From: Henriciella pelagia
GTDB taxonomy: Bacteria; Pseudomonadota; Alphaproteobacteria; Caulobacterales; Hyphomonadaceae
NCBI RefSeq assembly: GCF_002088945.1
Contig: NZ_NCSU01000006.1
Span: forward strand, 124,001-188,000
DNA: 64,000 bases
Reading direction: 5' to 3'
Shown here: piece by piece, positions 8,912 to 13,372 of the stretch
Position numbering within the stretch: position 1 is the stretch's first letter
How the letters are laid out: the number at the start of each line of letters is the position of its first letter
The notes under the pieces: generated by a model
Told to the model about the DNA's origin: nothing
What the model saw: the letters and a program-made list of their open reading frames with translations, nothing else
Database searches by the model: none
Translations under genes and position numbers: made by a program

Positions 8912-9811
8912 ATGTCAGCCCCGACCGCCCGTGAAAAACCCGCTTCCTTTCAGGACCTGATCCTGCGCCTGCAGGCCTATTGGGCCGCGCAGGGCTGCGC
9001 GATCCTGCAGCCTTATGACATGGAAGTGGGCGCCGGCACGTTGCATCCGGCGACGGTCCTCCGCGCCCTCGGGCCCAAGGACTGGCGCGCCGCCTATGTG
9101 CAGCCGTCCCGCCGCCCGGCCGATGGCCGCTATGGCGAGAATCCGAACCGGCTCGGCCATTACTACCAGTATCAAGTCATCCTGAAGCCGAACCCGGCAA
9201 ACCTACAGGACCTTTATCTCAACTCGCTTTACGAGATCGGTATCGACCCGATGGTGCACGATATCCGCTTCGTCGAAGATGACTGGGAGAACCCGACCGT
9301 CGGCGCCTGGGGCCTCGGCTGGGAAGTCTGGTGCGACGGGATGGAAGTCAGCCAGTACACTTATTTCCAGCAGGTCGGCGGCCTCGACGTGTTCCCGGTC
9401 TCGGGCGAGCTGACCTACGGCCTCGAACGCCTCGCCATGTATGTGTTCGGCGTCGACAATGTCTACGATCTGCCGTTCAACGACCCGGCCTCTGCCGTGC
9501 CGCTCTCCTATGGCGACGTCTTCCTGCAGAATGAGCGCGAACAATCGGCCTTCAACTTCGAACTCGCCGATGTTGAGATGCTGCAGACCTGGTTCACCGG
9601 TTGCGAGAGCCAATCAAAGGCCCTGCGCGAAGCCGGAAAGCCGCTGCCAGCCTATGACTATGCGCTGAAAGCCTCCCACGTCTTCAATCTGATCGATGCG
9701 CGCGGCGCGATTTCGCCGACAGAGCGCCAGGCCTTCATCGCCCGCGTCCGCGATCTTGCCCGCGGCGCCGCAGAGCTCTGGGCCAAGCAGGAAGAGGAGC
9801 GGGCGGCCTGA
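8912..9811 (+). CDS. glyQ: Glycyl-tRNA synthetase, alpha subunit
   Basis: The alpha chain of the bacterial alpha2beta2 GlyRS, 299 residues (E. coli 303). It carries the class II catalytic core: [33 protein letters not shown] (ATP and glycine site), QYQVILKP and [19 protein letters not shown]. It charges tRNA-Gly together with GlyS, encoded 1 kb downstream. Unusually, two lipoprotein genes lie between the pair. The stop overlaps the first of them (TGATG), implying one transcript. Confidence 0.98.
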
Positions 9812-10284
9812 TGCTTCGCGCGTTCCCGTTTGTGGTTCTGCTGGCGCTCACCGCCTGTGGCGGCGACCCCGCTTCGGACGGCGAGACCGCGCCATCGACG
9901 ACCGTTCCGGCCCCGGTCATCGGCGCGGACATGGAACTGCCCGTCGAAGACCCATTCTGCACCTTCACGGCAGAAGGCGGCGCACCCGAAGGCGGCTATG
10001 TCTTCGTCACCAGCATGGGCGAGAGCGTCTATCACGGCTATGCCAGGCTCGATGGCGAGACCACCCGGCTCACCGAAGTGGAGGCCGGCTTTGGCGCGGG
10101 CATCGAAACGCGCCGCTATGTGACGGATGATGAGAGCGTCGAGCTGGAAGTGATCCTGCTGGAGGCGGGCGAGTCCGAAGAGGCTGTCTCCTATACCGGA
10201 TCCGTGCGCTCAATCTTCCCGGTCGAGGGGGATGCGGTGAAATTTGAAGGCCGCTGTGCCTATGCCGGAGACGCCCATGAATAG
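9811..10284 (+). CDS. Small lipoprotein, first of a tandem pair between glyQ and glyS
   Basis: A 157-residue protein with signal peptide [18 protein letters not shown], lipobox LTAC. After an Ala/Pro/Thr-rich linker there is a compact domain rich in Glu and Gly, with cysteines at CTFTAEGG and GRCAYAG that could pair. It shares a loose C-terminal pattern with the next lipoprotein (SVRSIFPVEGDAVKFEGRC versus TMAIIEPVE...GVKGSC), so the two look like diverged paralogues. The start shares a base with the glyQ stop. Function unknown. Confidence 0.75.
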   Translation: MLRAFPFVVLLALTACGGDPASDGETAPSTTVPAPVIGADMELPVEDPFCTFTAEGGAPEGGYVFVTSMGESVYHGYARLDGETTRLTEVEAGFGAGIETRRYVTDDESVELEVILLEAGESEEAVSYTGSVRSIFPVEGDAVKFEGRCAYAGDAHE

Positions 10285-10801
10285 ATATATCTTCGCATTG
10301 CTGGCCGGGGTCATGGTCTCCGCCTGCGCCGAGCGGGCGAGCGAACCTGCCGGGGCGCCGCAATACAATACCAGCATCGACGATCCGGCCCCGCCGGCTG
10401 AGGATGTCGCAGAGACAGACCCGCAGGCGCTCGCCATCGGCATGATGCATGAGCCGGACACAGCCGCCTATTGCACGCTGATGCAGGCTGCCCATGAGTT
10501 CGTCTATGACGACCCGGACACCTGGCGCTTCGTCTTCCTGAGCGAAGCCGAAGGCGAGGCCCCGCCGGCGCGAATCAGGATCAATGACGAGGTGCTGGCC
10601 TTCAGTGAAGAGAGAAAGACCGAGGACGCCGAAGGGGTCGAGACCTGGCGATACCGGTCCGAGGACCGCGGCATTCTGGTCGAACTGCAACTGAAACCGG
10701 TCGATGGCGGTGTCGAACATACCGACTATGAAGGCACGATGGCCATCATCGAACCGGTCGAAACTGAGAAAATGGGCGTAAAAGGCAGTTGCGGCGTCTG
10801 A
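10277..10801 (+). CDS. Small lipoprotein, second of the tandem pair
   Basis: A 174-residue protein starting MNRYIFALLAGVMVSACAE with lipobox VSAC. The ATG at 10277 overlaps the previous stop by 8 bases; upstream in-frame codons would not give a signal peptide. The mature part keeps two cysteines (YCTLMQAA and GSCGV at the end) in positions like the preceding lipoprotein. It ends 48 bases before glyS. Role unknown; its placement between two essential synthetase genes is likely a chance insertion that kept the operon intact. Confidence 0.75.
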   Translation: MNRYIFALLAGVMVSACAERASEPAGAPQYNTSIDDPAPPAEDVAETDPQALAIGMMHEPDTAAYCTLMQAAHEFVYDDPDTWRFVFLSEAEGEAPPARIRINDEVLAFSEERKTEDAEGVETWRYRSEDRGILVELQLKPVDGGVEHTDYEGTMAIIEPVETEKMGVKGSCGV

Positions 10802-10849: not shown

Positions 10850-13372
10850 ATGGCTGAACTTCTCCTCGAACTCTTTTCGGAAGAGATTCCGGCACGCATG
10901 CAGGCAAAGGCCGAAAGCGATCTGCGCGACGCGCTGACCAGGGGCCTGACCGAAGCCGGCGTTGAGTTCGGTGAAGTGACGGCCCTGTCCGGCCCGCGCC
11001 GCCTCGCCATTGCAATTGACGGTCTGCCAGAGAAATCGGCTGATGTCAGCGAAGAGAAAAAAGGCCCAAAGGTCGGCGCGCCGGAACAGGCAGTGCAGGG
11101 CTTCCTGCGCGGGGCAGGCCTTACCTCGATCGATCAGGCCGAAGTGCGGAGCGACCCGAAAAAGGGCGACTTCTACGTCGCCGTGCGCGAAATTCCGGGT
11201 CGTCCGCTGGAAGACATCATTGCAGAACTCGTGCCGCAGATCGTGCGCGGATTCCACTGGCCGAAATCCATGCGCTGGGGACGCGGAGAGCTGCGCTGGG
11301 TGCGCCCGCTCCAGAGAATTGTCTGCGTTTTCAACGGCAAGACCGTCGAGTTCGAGATTGATGGCCTCAAATCCGGCAATGAAACCGAAGGCCACCGCGT
11401 CCAGGGGCGCGGTCCGTTCACTGTCTCGTCCCTGGACGAGTACCGCACAAAGCTGCAGCAGGAAGGCTCTGTCGTGCTGTCGCGCGAAGACCGCCGCCTG
11501 CTGATTGAGGAACAGGCCCACAAGGTCTGCGCCGAGGCTGGCCTGGAACTGGTCGAAGACAAGGGCCTGCTCGAAGAAGTGACCGGTCTTGCTGAATGGC
11601 CGGTGGTCATCCTTGGCGACATGGACCCTGCTTTCCTCGACCTGCCGGGCGAGGTCATCCAGCTCTCCATGCGCACGCACCAGAAATATTTCGCCGTGCG
11701 CGACCCGAAAACCGGAAATCTCGCGCCTCATTTCGTTGTGGTGGCCAATATCGAAGCAAAGGATGGCGGCAAGGCCATCGCGGCGGGCAATCGCAAGGTG
11801 CTGTCGGCGCGTCTCGATGATGCGCGCTTCTTCTGGGACAATGACCGCAATACGCCGCTCGAAAAGATGGCCGGGAAACTCTCGACGATCGACTTCAAGA
11901 AAGAGCTGGGCACCATTGCCGACAAGGTGGAGCGCGTCGCAGCCCTCGCGCGCGAACTCGCCCCGAAAGTCGGCGCGGATCCGGACCTTGCGGAAAAAGC
12001 CGCCAGGCTGGCCAAGGCGGACCTCGTCTCCGAAATGGTGTTCGAATTCCCTGAACTTCAGGGCGTGATGGGCCGGTATTATGCGCTGGAAGCCGGTAAA
12101 CGCGCCGGCGTCATACCGGACGCAAAGCGATCCGGGACCCAGTCAGCAGCAGAAGAGTCTGGGGCCCGGACAAGCTCTGACGAGCTTTCCGGGATGACGG
12201 GATTTGTGGACAGGCTTGATGAAGCCAGCGTGCGCGCCATCGCCGACGCCATCGCGATGCACTACAAGCCGCAAGGCCCGTCAGACGAGGTGCCGACAGA
12301 GCCTGTCAGCATCGCCGTCGCCCTCGCCGACAAGCTCGACACACTGGTCGGCTTCTGGGCCATCGACGAAAAACCCACCGGATCGAAAGACCCGTTCGCG
12401 CTGCGCCGCGCGGCACTGGGCGTCGTGCGGATCATTCTGGAGAATGAGGTTCGGCTGAATCTTCAGGATGATATCTTGAAGACATTCAACATCCTGATAT
12501 CGATTCCTTTTGCTGACTATATTTCATCGAGGTCGTCCGAAACGGCGCTTTCTGATGTCGAGCACCTCATCAGAAGACACGAGTTTAAGTTCAAACTTGT
12601 CCATGATTTCTTGTCGAATGAGAACGGTCAGTTTGACGTAATGGAACTTGCTAAAGCAGTGCATCTTTCTGACGTCCCTCAAAACTATGATTACGTCCGT
12701 CAGTTGCCGATAGATATATCTGCTGCAAATCACCCAGATGAAGCATGGGCTTTTATACACCGAAATCACCCAGGTGAACCTAAGAAGTACTTTCTTGAGG
12801 ATAATGAGGGAGCCCAATTAAATTTGGCAGGGAGAACAGAGGTTCAAAGAACTGACCTCCTCGCCTTCTTCGCTGACCGCCTCAAACAATACCTCCGCGA
12901 CGCCGGCGCGCGTTATGACCTTATTGATGCGGTCTTTGCGCTTGGCGAGGATGATCTCGTCCTCATCGTAAAGCGGGTCGAGGCGCTCGGCGCGTTCCTT
13001 GAGACCGAAGACGGCGCAAACCTTCAGGCGGGCTACAAACGCGCGGTCAACATTCTCAGGGCGGAAGAGAAAAAAGACGGCGCAGAATTTGCAGGCACGC
13101 CCGACACATCACTGTTCGAACAGGACGAGGAGAAGGCCCTGTACGCTGCCATCGAAGCATCTTCGGCAGAGGCCGATGCGGCCCTGAAGGCCGAGGACTT
13201 TGAGAGGGCCATGGCGGCGCTCGCGGCCCTGCGTGCGCCCGTCGATGCCTTCTTCGAACATATTCAGGTGAATGCCGAGAAACCAGAACTGAGGCAAAAC
13301 CGCCTATTGATTCTGAATTCCATTCGTGACGCTTTGCAACGCGTCGCGGATTTTTCCAAACTGGCGGCATAA
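10850..13372 (+). CDS. glyS: Glycyl-tRNA synthetase, beta subunit, with two in-frame insertions
   Basis: GlyS is the tRNA-binding chain of GlyRS. Typical parts are present: the N-terminal ELLLELFSEEIPARMQ, RTHQKYFAVRD, GRYYALEAG, HYKPQGPSDEVPT, SKDPFALRRAALGVVRII, then DLLAFFADRLKQYLRDAGARYD and a C-terminal anticodon-binding region. The chain is 840 residues against about 690 in most bacteria. The excess maps to two places: about residues 421-451, encoded by a palindromic repeat element at 12110-12201, and about residues 531-667, where an AT-rich stretch replaces the usual short linker of about 35 residues. Both keep frame and all flanking motifs are intact, so the protein is probably functional. 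Confidence 0.95.
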   Translation: MAELLLELFSEEIPARMQAKAESDLRDALTRGLTEAGVEFGEVTALSGPRRLAIAIDGLPEKSADVSEEKKGPKVGAPEQAVQGFLRGAGLTSIDQAEVRSDPKKGDFYVAVREIPGRPLEDIIAELVPQIVRGFHWPKSMRWGRGELRWVRPLQRIVCVFNGKTVEFEIDGLKSGNETEGHRVQGRGPFTVSSLDEYRTKLQQEGSVVLSREDRRLLIEEQAHKVCAEAGLELVEDKGLLEEVTGLAEWPVVILGDMDPAFLDLPGEVIQLSMRTHQKYFAVRDPKTGNLAPHFVVVANIEAKDGGKAIAAGNRKVLSARLDDARFFWDNDRNTPLEKMAGKLSTIDFKKELGTIADKVERVAALARELAPKVGADPDLAEKAARLAKADLVSEMVFEFPELQGVMGRYYALEAGKRAGVIPDAKRSGTQSAAEESGARTSSDELSGMTGFVDRLDEASVRAIADAIAMHYKPQGPSDEVPTEPVSIAVALADKLDTLVGFWAIDEKPTGSKDPFALRRAALGVVRIILENEVRLNLQDDILKTFNILISIPFADYISSRSSETALSDVEHLIRRHEFKFKLVHDFLSNENGQFDVMELAKAVHLSDVPQNYDYVRQLPIDISAANHPDEAWAFIHRNHPGEPKKYFLEDNEGAQLNLAGRTEVQRTDLLAFFADRLKQYLRDAGARYDLIDAVFALGEDDLVLIVKRVEALGAFLETEDGANLQAGYKRAVNILRAEEKKDGAEFAGTPDTSLFEQDEEKALYAAIEASSAEADAALKAEDFERAMAALAALRAPVDAFFEHIQVNAEKPELRQNRLLILNSIRDALQRVADFSKLAA
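12110..12201. repeat. Palindromic repeat element read in frame inside glyS
   Basis: The ends form an inverted repeat: GTCATACCGG at 12110 pairs with CCGGGATGAC at 12189-12198 (one mismatch). Inside, TCCGGGACCCAG at about 12131-12142 is nearly the complement of CTGGGGCCCGGA at about 12159-12170. The GTCATCCCGG...CCGGGATGAC termini and GATCCGGGACCCAG core are typical of intergenic alphaproteobacterial palindromes, but here the element is translated as about 30 residues of GlyS (starting VIPDAKRSG). Confidence 0.75.
12440..12850 (+). other. AT-rich in-frame insertion within glyS
   Basis: Hand counts give 25 G+C of 60 at 12601-12660 and 24 of 60 at 12781-12840, against 40 of 60 in the flanking line 12361-12420. 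The encoded stretch (FNILISIPFADYISS ... EDNEGAQLNLAGR) sits between the family motifs LGVVRII and DLLAFFADRL. No intein block, no stop codon and no recombinase-like motif was seen. It contains a 16-base near-direct repeat at 12727-12742 and 12763-12778. Boundaries are approximate. Confidence 0.7.

Follow-up and report, generated by a model that had tools for sequence, protein, structure and literature searches.

Aminoacyl-tRNA synthetases (aaRS) are textbook slow-evolving housekeeping enzymes. How, then, did glyS, the glycyl-tRNA synthetase (GlyRS) beta subunit gene in a 64,000-nucleotide stretch of the Henriciella pelagia genome (the whole stretch analysed, hereafter the window), come to carry a long AT-rich segment in its reading frame, and what could maintain such a segment? 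The place in the gene, referred to below as site B, holds segments that are in frame and protein-like and that differ in nearly all species pairs, even at 95-98% identity outside the segment. The features on which the argument turns are the following.

10850..13372, plus strand: glyS, glycyl-tRNA synthetase beta subunit, 840 aa (PF02092, PF05746; sole match in the genome).
12365..12457, plus strand: conserved upstream flank, the end of the HD domain (...LRRAALGVVRIILENEVRL) and left edge of site B; the same in the window GlyS (L001) and its nearest distinct relative (P0003).
12458..12856, plus strand: site B insert, 133 codons, an AT-rich variable domain unmatched in the other genomes searched.
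12857..13000, plus strand: conserved downstream flank (LLAFFADRLKQYLRD...), right edge of site B, toward the anticodon-binding domain; first 60 residues the same in L001 and P0003.
12727..12778, plus strand: imperfect 16-nt direct repeat within the insert, start-to-start spacing 36 nt.

The 840-codon open frame at 10850-13372 (plus strand) is glyS. Its product combines the PF02092 core (E 4.1e-185) with a DALR anticodon-binding domain (DALR_1, PF05746, E 1.1e-10) and aligns with E. coli GlyS (PDB 7yse) in two stretches. The 3.44-Mb genome has a single GlyS match, and no alpha2-type GlyRS was found in it above the curated cut-off; TIGR00389 gave one partial match of 25.3 bits (cut-off 243.3), spanning model positions 441-562. 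The enzyme is thus the sole glycyl-tRNA synthetase found in this genome, and since its GlyS match is the only one and no alpha2-type enzyme reaches the cut-off, glyS is presumably essential. Site B lies between the HD and anticodon-binding domains. The available text of PMC8464048 places the E. coli HD domain at residues 341-540, with site B near its end and ahead of the anticodon-binding domain, and that of PMC9908026 describes a joint rotation of the two domains by about 30 degrees upon tRNA binding. In the numbering of the 7yse alignment, E. coli GlyS has 25 residues at site B.

Comparison with relatives fixed the bounds of the window insert: 133 residues (12458-12856) separate ...VRIILENEVRL from LLAFFADRLKQ. 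In steps of 120 bases, the G+C content is 42-48% across 12420-12899 and about 57-67% in the adjoining steps; the insert segment itself has a G+C content of 0.43 (third positions 0.43), compared with 0.59-0.64 in the other segments of glyS. It contains no stop or frameshift, and a sequence of this kind would be free of stops by chance with P = 0.00025 (mononucleotide shuffle). The first-pass annotation, made from the letters of the window, had noticed an AT-rich, in-frame extra segment within glyS, and this description holds at 133 codons and about 43% G+C. Its edges (12440-12850) were at most 18 bases from the bounds set by the relatives. The 67% G+C that it gave for the flank is right as a local value and too high for the gene, which has about 62%. 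Its estimate of about 105 extra codons agrees with the comparison with E. coli; short-linker relatives have 5-28 residues at site B, and the excess over the 11-residue linker of L021/P0073 is 122 residues. Its placement of the segment in the tRNA-binding subunit was confirmed, and the segment has an evolutionary history of its own. Within the insert, the direct repeat at 12727-12778 (NHPDEAWAFIHRNHPGEP) hints at an internal duplication of 12 codons.

GlyS was read in 61 genomes (the window genome, 28 of the genus, 8 of the family and 24 of the order), with no stop in glyS among the matches listed. Fifty-nine of the proteins were placed in one alignment, and two (L018 and L063) were read separately. 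To the 61 genomes we added 120 of 7998 homologues; removal of exact duplicates left 165 proteins, and of the partial P0038, 164. We called an insert long if it had at least 30 residues and assigned inserts to one family by all-against-all BLASTP at E <= 0.01, both cut-offs being our own choice; inserts are called unrelated here if they have no BLASTP match. Site B spans 2-136 codons in the 59 aligned GlyS and 5-150 residues in the 164 proteins, 110 of which have long inserts. These fall into 81 BLASTP families, including 63 singletons. Profile comparison revealed no relation between families A2 and A3 or A2 and A4; the others were compared by BLASTP only, and remote kinship or a common fold among the 81 is possible.

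The turnover of long inserts is visible at small distances. Pairs of long inserts belong to the same family in 7/7 cases at a core identity of at least 99.3%, in 3/21 at 97-99.3%, in 0/43 at 95-97%, in 1/104 at 90-95%, in 1/184 at 85-90% and in 4/496 at 80-85%; the pairs are not independent of one another. P0003, the nearest distinct GlyS, has a core 98.2% identical to that of the window protein, identical flanks (45 residues before the insert and 60 after) and an unrelated insert of 83 residues. Two GlyS proteins labelled Henriciella mobilis, also with 98.2% identical cores, have 21 and 69 residues at site B. Short linkers behave differently: by a 40% identity rule they are alike in 23/29 pairs at 97-99.3% core identity, 9/11 at 95-97%, 6/11 at 90-95% and 43/110 at 85-90%. 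Another 21 pairs at 97-99.3% combine a short linker with a long insert. Because short linkers remain alike at the same core identities, hypervariability is a property of the long inserts and not of the site itself. One old domain evolving fast but gradually is ruled out by near-identical cores with dissimilar inserts of differing length. The locus has what a domain-swapping locus should have, namely dissimilar middles in close relatives, the same middles in some distant ones, and conserved flanks.

Two side observations concern the same alignment. P0094 and P0099 have 100% identical cores and 97% identical inserts, which population variation or an assembly error could explain. P0039, P0042 and P0096 differ just behind site B too (LQWFLDERLVVAQKDKGVRHDYVEAA... 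replaces LLAFFADRLKQYLRD... in P0042), which would fit a joint exchange of the insert and an alternative beginning of the anticodon-binding domain.

The earlier proposal of one captured foreign segment did not survive this comparison. Site B holds dissimilar segments in most related species that have one, two multi-member families searched across genomes recur between species yet only inside GlyS, the window insert was seen only in its own glyS, and the inserts have a long-standing coding composition, all of which speaks against a single foreign capture. A segment of the same length and normal composition in all relatives, which that proposal had named as the finding that would overturn it in favour of an old lineage-specific extension, was sought and is absent: the 59 GlyS carry 2-136 codons, mostly AT-rich.

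The inserts look like long-standing protein-coding sequence. In the 39 loci with inserts of at least 30 residues, the mean G+C content is 0.511 in the insert and 0.616 in the core, with the insert lower in 36/39; in the 20 shorter segments it is 0.540 against 0.595 in the core, lower in 17/20. The glyS frame is open through all 39 inserts and the five others are open in 1-9 of them; by mononucleotide shuffling, 39 open frames would arise with a probability of about 10^-65. Cysteine and acidic residues make up 0.4% and 17% of the inserts, close to the 0.5% and 16% of the core; two other frames that were examined give 3.1 and 3.7% cysteine and 4 and 8% acidic residues. In three pairs of inserts from common families, with synonymous sites near saturation, the proportions of synonymous and nonsynonymous differences (pS/pN) are 0.84/0.15, 0.64/0.39 and 0.71/0.53. 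The lower pN fits purifying selection, which would be strong in the first of these pairs and weak in the third. By charge and hydropathy, 79/100 inserts of at least 40 residues are on the folded side, and the window insert is at the boundary. AlphaFold2 models of the window GlyS give residues 551-660 a block predicted local distance difference test score (pLDDT) of 25-57, which is low confidence for most of the insert, and residues 551-640 of P0083 a pLDDT of 30-41; comparison of the model with the PDB applies to the core only.

Some families are shared between distant species. One is common to L015, P0005 and L043, with cores 66-86% identical, and another to L013, L017, P0016, P0050 and P0095, with cores 72-93% identical. 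Three inserts were searched across genomes (families A2 and A4 and the window insert), and they were found only in GlyS. Family A4 was found in 1/249 genomes of the order; a peptide-pattern scan of one genome per species in 84,980 species returned two loci, in Henriciella aquimarina and in the metagenome-assembled genome (MAG) RI_213, both of them the already known glyS genes L015 and L043. Family A2 was found in 2/249 genomes; the open frames that contain it have 780 and 779 codons and read as GlyS. The window insert was found in 1/398 genomes, its own, with no second place in that genome either as protein or as DNA.

At least one recent import is visible as a diverged tract adjoining an insert. 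The nucleotide identity of L010 to L005 and L011 is 0.91-0.97 over residues 1-412, falls to 0.65-0.66 (third positions 0.25-0.30) at 466-505 and 0.76-0.79 at 506-538, and returns to 0.86-0.96 behind the insert. No near match to the diverged tract was found among the other 58 sequences (best 0.76). A like dip, to 0.66 (third positions 0.24), separates L008 from L025 at 506-538. In ten independent pairs not chosen by insert, third-position identity near the insert is 0.13-0.26 below the distal value in four. Since families are common to distant species and a synonymously diverged tract was imported in one species, the inserts appear to move between the glyS genes of strains and species, probably by homologous recombination through the conserved flanks.

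Use of site B extends past this order, in patches. In the class, 190 genomes were searched, 157 matched, and the best-scoring 28 loci (L064-L091) were read. Twenty of these have fewer than 40 residues at site B, and 6/8 longer inserts are poorer in G+C than their own core (111 residues at 0.48 versus 0.61, 102 at 0.41 versus 0.60, and 74 at 0.49 versus 0.65, for example), the exceptions being L078 and L090. A GlyS match was found in 146/150 genomes of a phylum sample.

What the inserts might be was sought among known families and elements. After near-duplicates had been dropped, 77/91 inserts of at least 40 residues were scanned against Pfam, PHROGs, PADLOC and NCBIfam. They gave single-member matches only, at chance level (best E 0.0049, 0.0088, 0.0034 and 0.02, respectively); the PADLOC defence models contributed two of these, E 0.0034 and 0.037, and none for the window insert. 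No solved structure was found for families A2 or A3 or the window insert at E <= 1, no phage record for the window insert at E <= 10 (one A4 member gave only E >= 2), and no viral contig by peptide pattern for A2 or the window insert. Two plasmid matches to the window insert (E 3 and 6, a quarter of its length) were judged to be chance. Stand-alone homologues of the window insert, sought among proteins of about 73-233 aa, were absent at E <= 10, in a comparison that covered the 5 candidates with words in common. At the DNA level, all-against-all comparison of the inserts of the 39 loci recovered the L013/L017 family and one 17-base match only, which speaks against an origin by inversion or duplication; against genome stretches totalling 1.5 Mb, insert DNA matched itself and one 22-base segment only. 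Rfam gave one sub-threshold match in 12300-13000, outside the insert, and thus no group I or II intron or other RNA element over it.

Several kinds of element were tried and rejected. Inteins require Cys, Ser or Thr after the junction and a terminal Asn; here Leu follows an insert that ends in ...RTD, and no intein family is present in the 77 inserts. The first-pass annotation had likewise seen neither intein features nor a nuclease, and no such family was matched. The insert has no inverted repeats of at least 12 bases and no second genomic copy (best match 20 bases, E 0.18). With neither, it was rejected as a palindromic repeat element, whether a Rickettsia palindromic element (RPE), a repetitive extragenic palindrome (REP) or a miniature inverted-repeat transposable element (MITE). 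A target of a diversity-generating retroelement, which should have a template repeat, was rejected for the lack of a second DNA copy in the genome.

The window glyS contains one more in-frame insertion.

12098..12235, plus strand: site A, a further insertion that keeps the frame (about 40 codons), GC-rich and strongly palindromic.

Site A has the inverted repeats that site B does not have: its single-strand DNA fold has a z of -5.66, with 0/200 shuffles as good. Partial copies of 41-95 bases and 71-83% identity occur in the genome (E 3.7e-5, 8.5e-4 and 0.038), although they align poorly together with their surroundings. Most relatives lack site A, and others hold a different repeat-like sequence there. 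It is probably a dispersed repeat of the in-frame kind known from Rickettsia, and not a domain of the site B type. Other variable places were seen in glyS of relatives. L149, L150, L151 and L153, from other alphaproteobacteria, have in-frame repeat-like peptides elsewhere (e.g. after reference residues 372-379 and 534), one of which contains ...LDSRLRGNDE, similar to a common palindromic repeat. In L007, a 31-residue Ala/Gln/Ser-rich insertion (74% G+C) after reference residue 533, behind site B, makes a third variable place in GlyS.

To judge how unusual site B is among genes, the window contig (C13, 300 kb) was compared with 400 kb of genome G025; the comparisons cover about 300 kb and 400 kb of each genome pair. 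By a first method, GlyS alone among 222 ortholog pairs has a middle of at least 15 residues that cannot be aligned although the parts on either side can. A second method was applied to 213 pairs from the window genome (G000) and G025 and to 306 pairs from G018 and G004, 519 in all. Site B gives the largest block in the former (143 versus 77 residues) and in the latter a block of 43 versus 77 residues, below only a 99-residue stretch in a mutY-like frame. The site A block is present in both genome pairs, and the remaining blocks have at most 40 residues, by their letters often low-complexity linkers. The mutY-like block corresponds to 266 bases without a BLASTN match and has an equal length in both genomes; it was therefore rejected as an insert and regarded as a diverged stretch. 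It lies at about 8100-8365 of L187 (G018), in a region otherwise 88-93% identical to G004, and is probably an imported diverged tract; the gene name is one that we take from its residues. In the open-access literature, searched by title and the start of the abstract, we found, among the papers listed, nothing on a variable insert in GlyS, on hypervariable aaRS or on core-gene cassettes, and nothing matching under frequency-dependent selection on aaRS or under phage or toxin combined with glycyl-tRNA synthetase.

The partner subunit lies upstream of glyS.

8912..9811, plus strand: glyQ, alpha subunit partner (open frame, from sequence).

The name glyQ is provisional. Between glyQ and glyS, at 9811-10801, there are two small overlapping frames, lipoprotein-like by eye.

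We give an even chance to the following explanation: site B is a polymorphic cassette site, whose segments are swapped between glyS genes by recombination and whose diversity is selected through an antagonist. Homologous recombination through the conserved flanks would exchange the insert between glyS genes. A phage-encoded protein or delivered toxin would engage glycyl-tRNA synthetase at the surface formed by site B, a rare insert would be an advantage against it, and diversity would thereby be maintained by diversifying or negative-frequency-dependent selection. Selection for rarity is proposed because the long inserts turn over, form so many families and differ in this from short linkers; the simplest selective agent would be a protein of a phage or a delivered toxin that engages glycyl-tRNA synthetase. 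AT-rich composition is typical at defence and surface loci, and in site B it may be the mark of a fast-circulating accessory sequence. Two reports are weak leads. The available part of PMC8711792, on 109 E. coli mutants resistant to phage, gives glyS single-nucleotide polymorphisms for 4 strains, and that of PMC7470980 describes the acetylation of Gly-tRNA-Gly by AtaT2, a toxin of the GNAT (Gcn5-related N-acetyltransferase) family; neither concerns site B. We speculate, more tentatively and with somewhat less than even confidence, that GlyS provides the constant scaffold of a polymorphic locus of the immune type, in which interchangeable domains found only in GlyS set the sensitivity to phages or toxins and are traded across alphaproteobacterial species. 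The insert could then act as a decoy, a guard or an escape surface against agents acting on or through glycyl-tRNA synthesis.

A number of observations weigh against selected exchange of this kind. The antagonist is hypothetical, and the inserts themselves give no pointer to immunity, because none of the 77 matches a defence, phage or other family beyond chance. The E. coli glyS polymorphisms have no bearing on site B, and they may or may not change the protein or cause resistance. Transfer of the window insert itself is unobserved, since no other genome searched contains it. In the other pairs of the ten mentioned above, third-position identity near the insert is 0.01 below the distal value in three and 0.03-0.11 above it in three, so that the average effect on flank divergence is modest. 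L001 and P0003 have identical flanks on both sides, as far as the very edges of the insert; therefore some exchange tracts are very short, or another mechanism also acts. Nonsynonymous divergence in the three family pairs is higher in the insert (pN 0.15, 0.39 and 0.53) than in the N-terminal core (0.10, 0.23 and 0.24); constraint on the inserts is weaker than on the core, because at the protein level they evolve faster within families. Finally, GlyS enzymes in general can do without the insert, because 20/28 class loci have fewer than 40 residues at site B.

Site B accommodates both short linkers and inserts that vary widely in length, other GlyS loops in the class hold in-frame repeat-like insertions, and the inserts evolve faster than the core. 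This is also what neutral tolerance would produce, if the loop between the HD and anticodon-binding domains took almost any sequence and a recombination hotspot or a frequent origin of segments supplied harmless, unselected inserts. We regard this as rather unlikely: no comparable AT-rich internal block was seen in other genes among the 213 and 306 ortholog pairs (from about 300 kb and 400 kb of each genome pair), the inserts are protein-like, have pN below pS and were found only in GlyS where searched, and, unlike short linkers, they are replaced by the time that the cores have diverged by a few percent. That pN is below pS in three family pairs would suit a different possibility, namely adaptive moonlighting, in which each domain would link GlyRS with a partner particular to the lineage, or regulate the enzyme (e.g. 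by tuning glycylation to a niche), and be swapped as partners differ between strains. The available text of PMC8464048 describes aaRS as gaining inserted domains and non-canonical functions. Nevertheless, 81 families among 110 inserts seem far beyond the needs of docking, and where GlyS proteins are nearly identical, a difference in insert points to antagonism more than to stable partnership, which makes such moonlighting, in our judgement, quite improbable.

A selfish element preferring site B, be it an intein, a group I or II intron, or a palindromic or bypass element, would account for the single precise site, the AT-rich composition and a variable occupancy that includes short-linker alleles, and site A of the same gene does resemble a palindromic repeat. 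We consider it very improbable for site B, where Rfam has no match over the insert, no intein or nuclease family is found in the 77 inserts, inverted repeats and a second genomic copy are missing, and the frame is open in 39/39 inserts that look protein-like. Many of the relatives are metagenome records, which could raise suspicion of an assembly or gene-calling artefact. Its probability is practically negligible: site B inserts are seen in the one-contig genome G018, in G025 (glyS on a 3.8-Mb contig) and in named records not marked as MAG, and the window insert lies on a contig of 300 kb, within a single unbroken frame.

If polymorphic, exchanged cassettes at site B are the right explanation, the locus matters beyond this gene. 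Whole dissimilar segments exchanged while the rest changes by a few percent would imply strong recurring selection, or an unfamiliar recombination hotspot. Turnover between close relatives is the pattern expected of surface and immunity proteins, here in a core housekeeping enzyme. It could indicate that phages or competitors use a so far unknown class of weapons against glycyl-tRNA synthetase, or that a guard system of an unknown kind exists. The inserts also supply dozens of small protein families whose fold is unknown.

Among known systems, E. coli GlyS (PDB 7eiv, 7yse), the beta subunit of a bacterial alpha2-beta2 enzyme, is close in its frame: core, domain order and site flanks align with the window GlyS, and the available portions of its two structure papers describe no insert at its 25-residue site B. 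Rickettsia palindromic elements and in-frame MITEs, according to the available part of PMC10969869, insert into housekeeping genes and are tolerated there, and site A is alike. Site B differs from them in being AT-rich and protein-like, without inverted repeats and with a single genomic copy. A conserved frame with a swapped, diverse middle, families that cross species and close strains that differ are all familiar from HsdS target-recognition domains, polymorphic toxin/immunity pairs, S-layer and O-antigen loci. Those are loci of defence, competition and the cell surface, whereas site B is framed by an enzyme of translation in the cytosol; no known family is matched by any of the 77 site B inserts. 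Extra domains in aaRS, such as the CAAD domains of cyanobacteria, are in general stable, clade-wide and of one family. Ins3 of human GlyRS, as far as the available part of its description goes, is likewise an extra domain in an aaRS. In contrast to domains of this type, site B alternates between 81 families without BLASTP similarity to one another.

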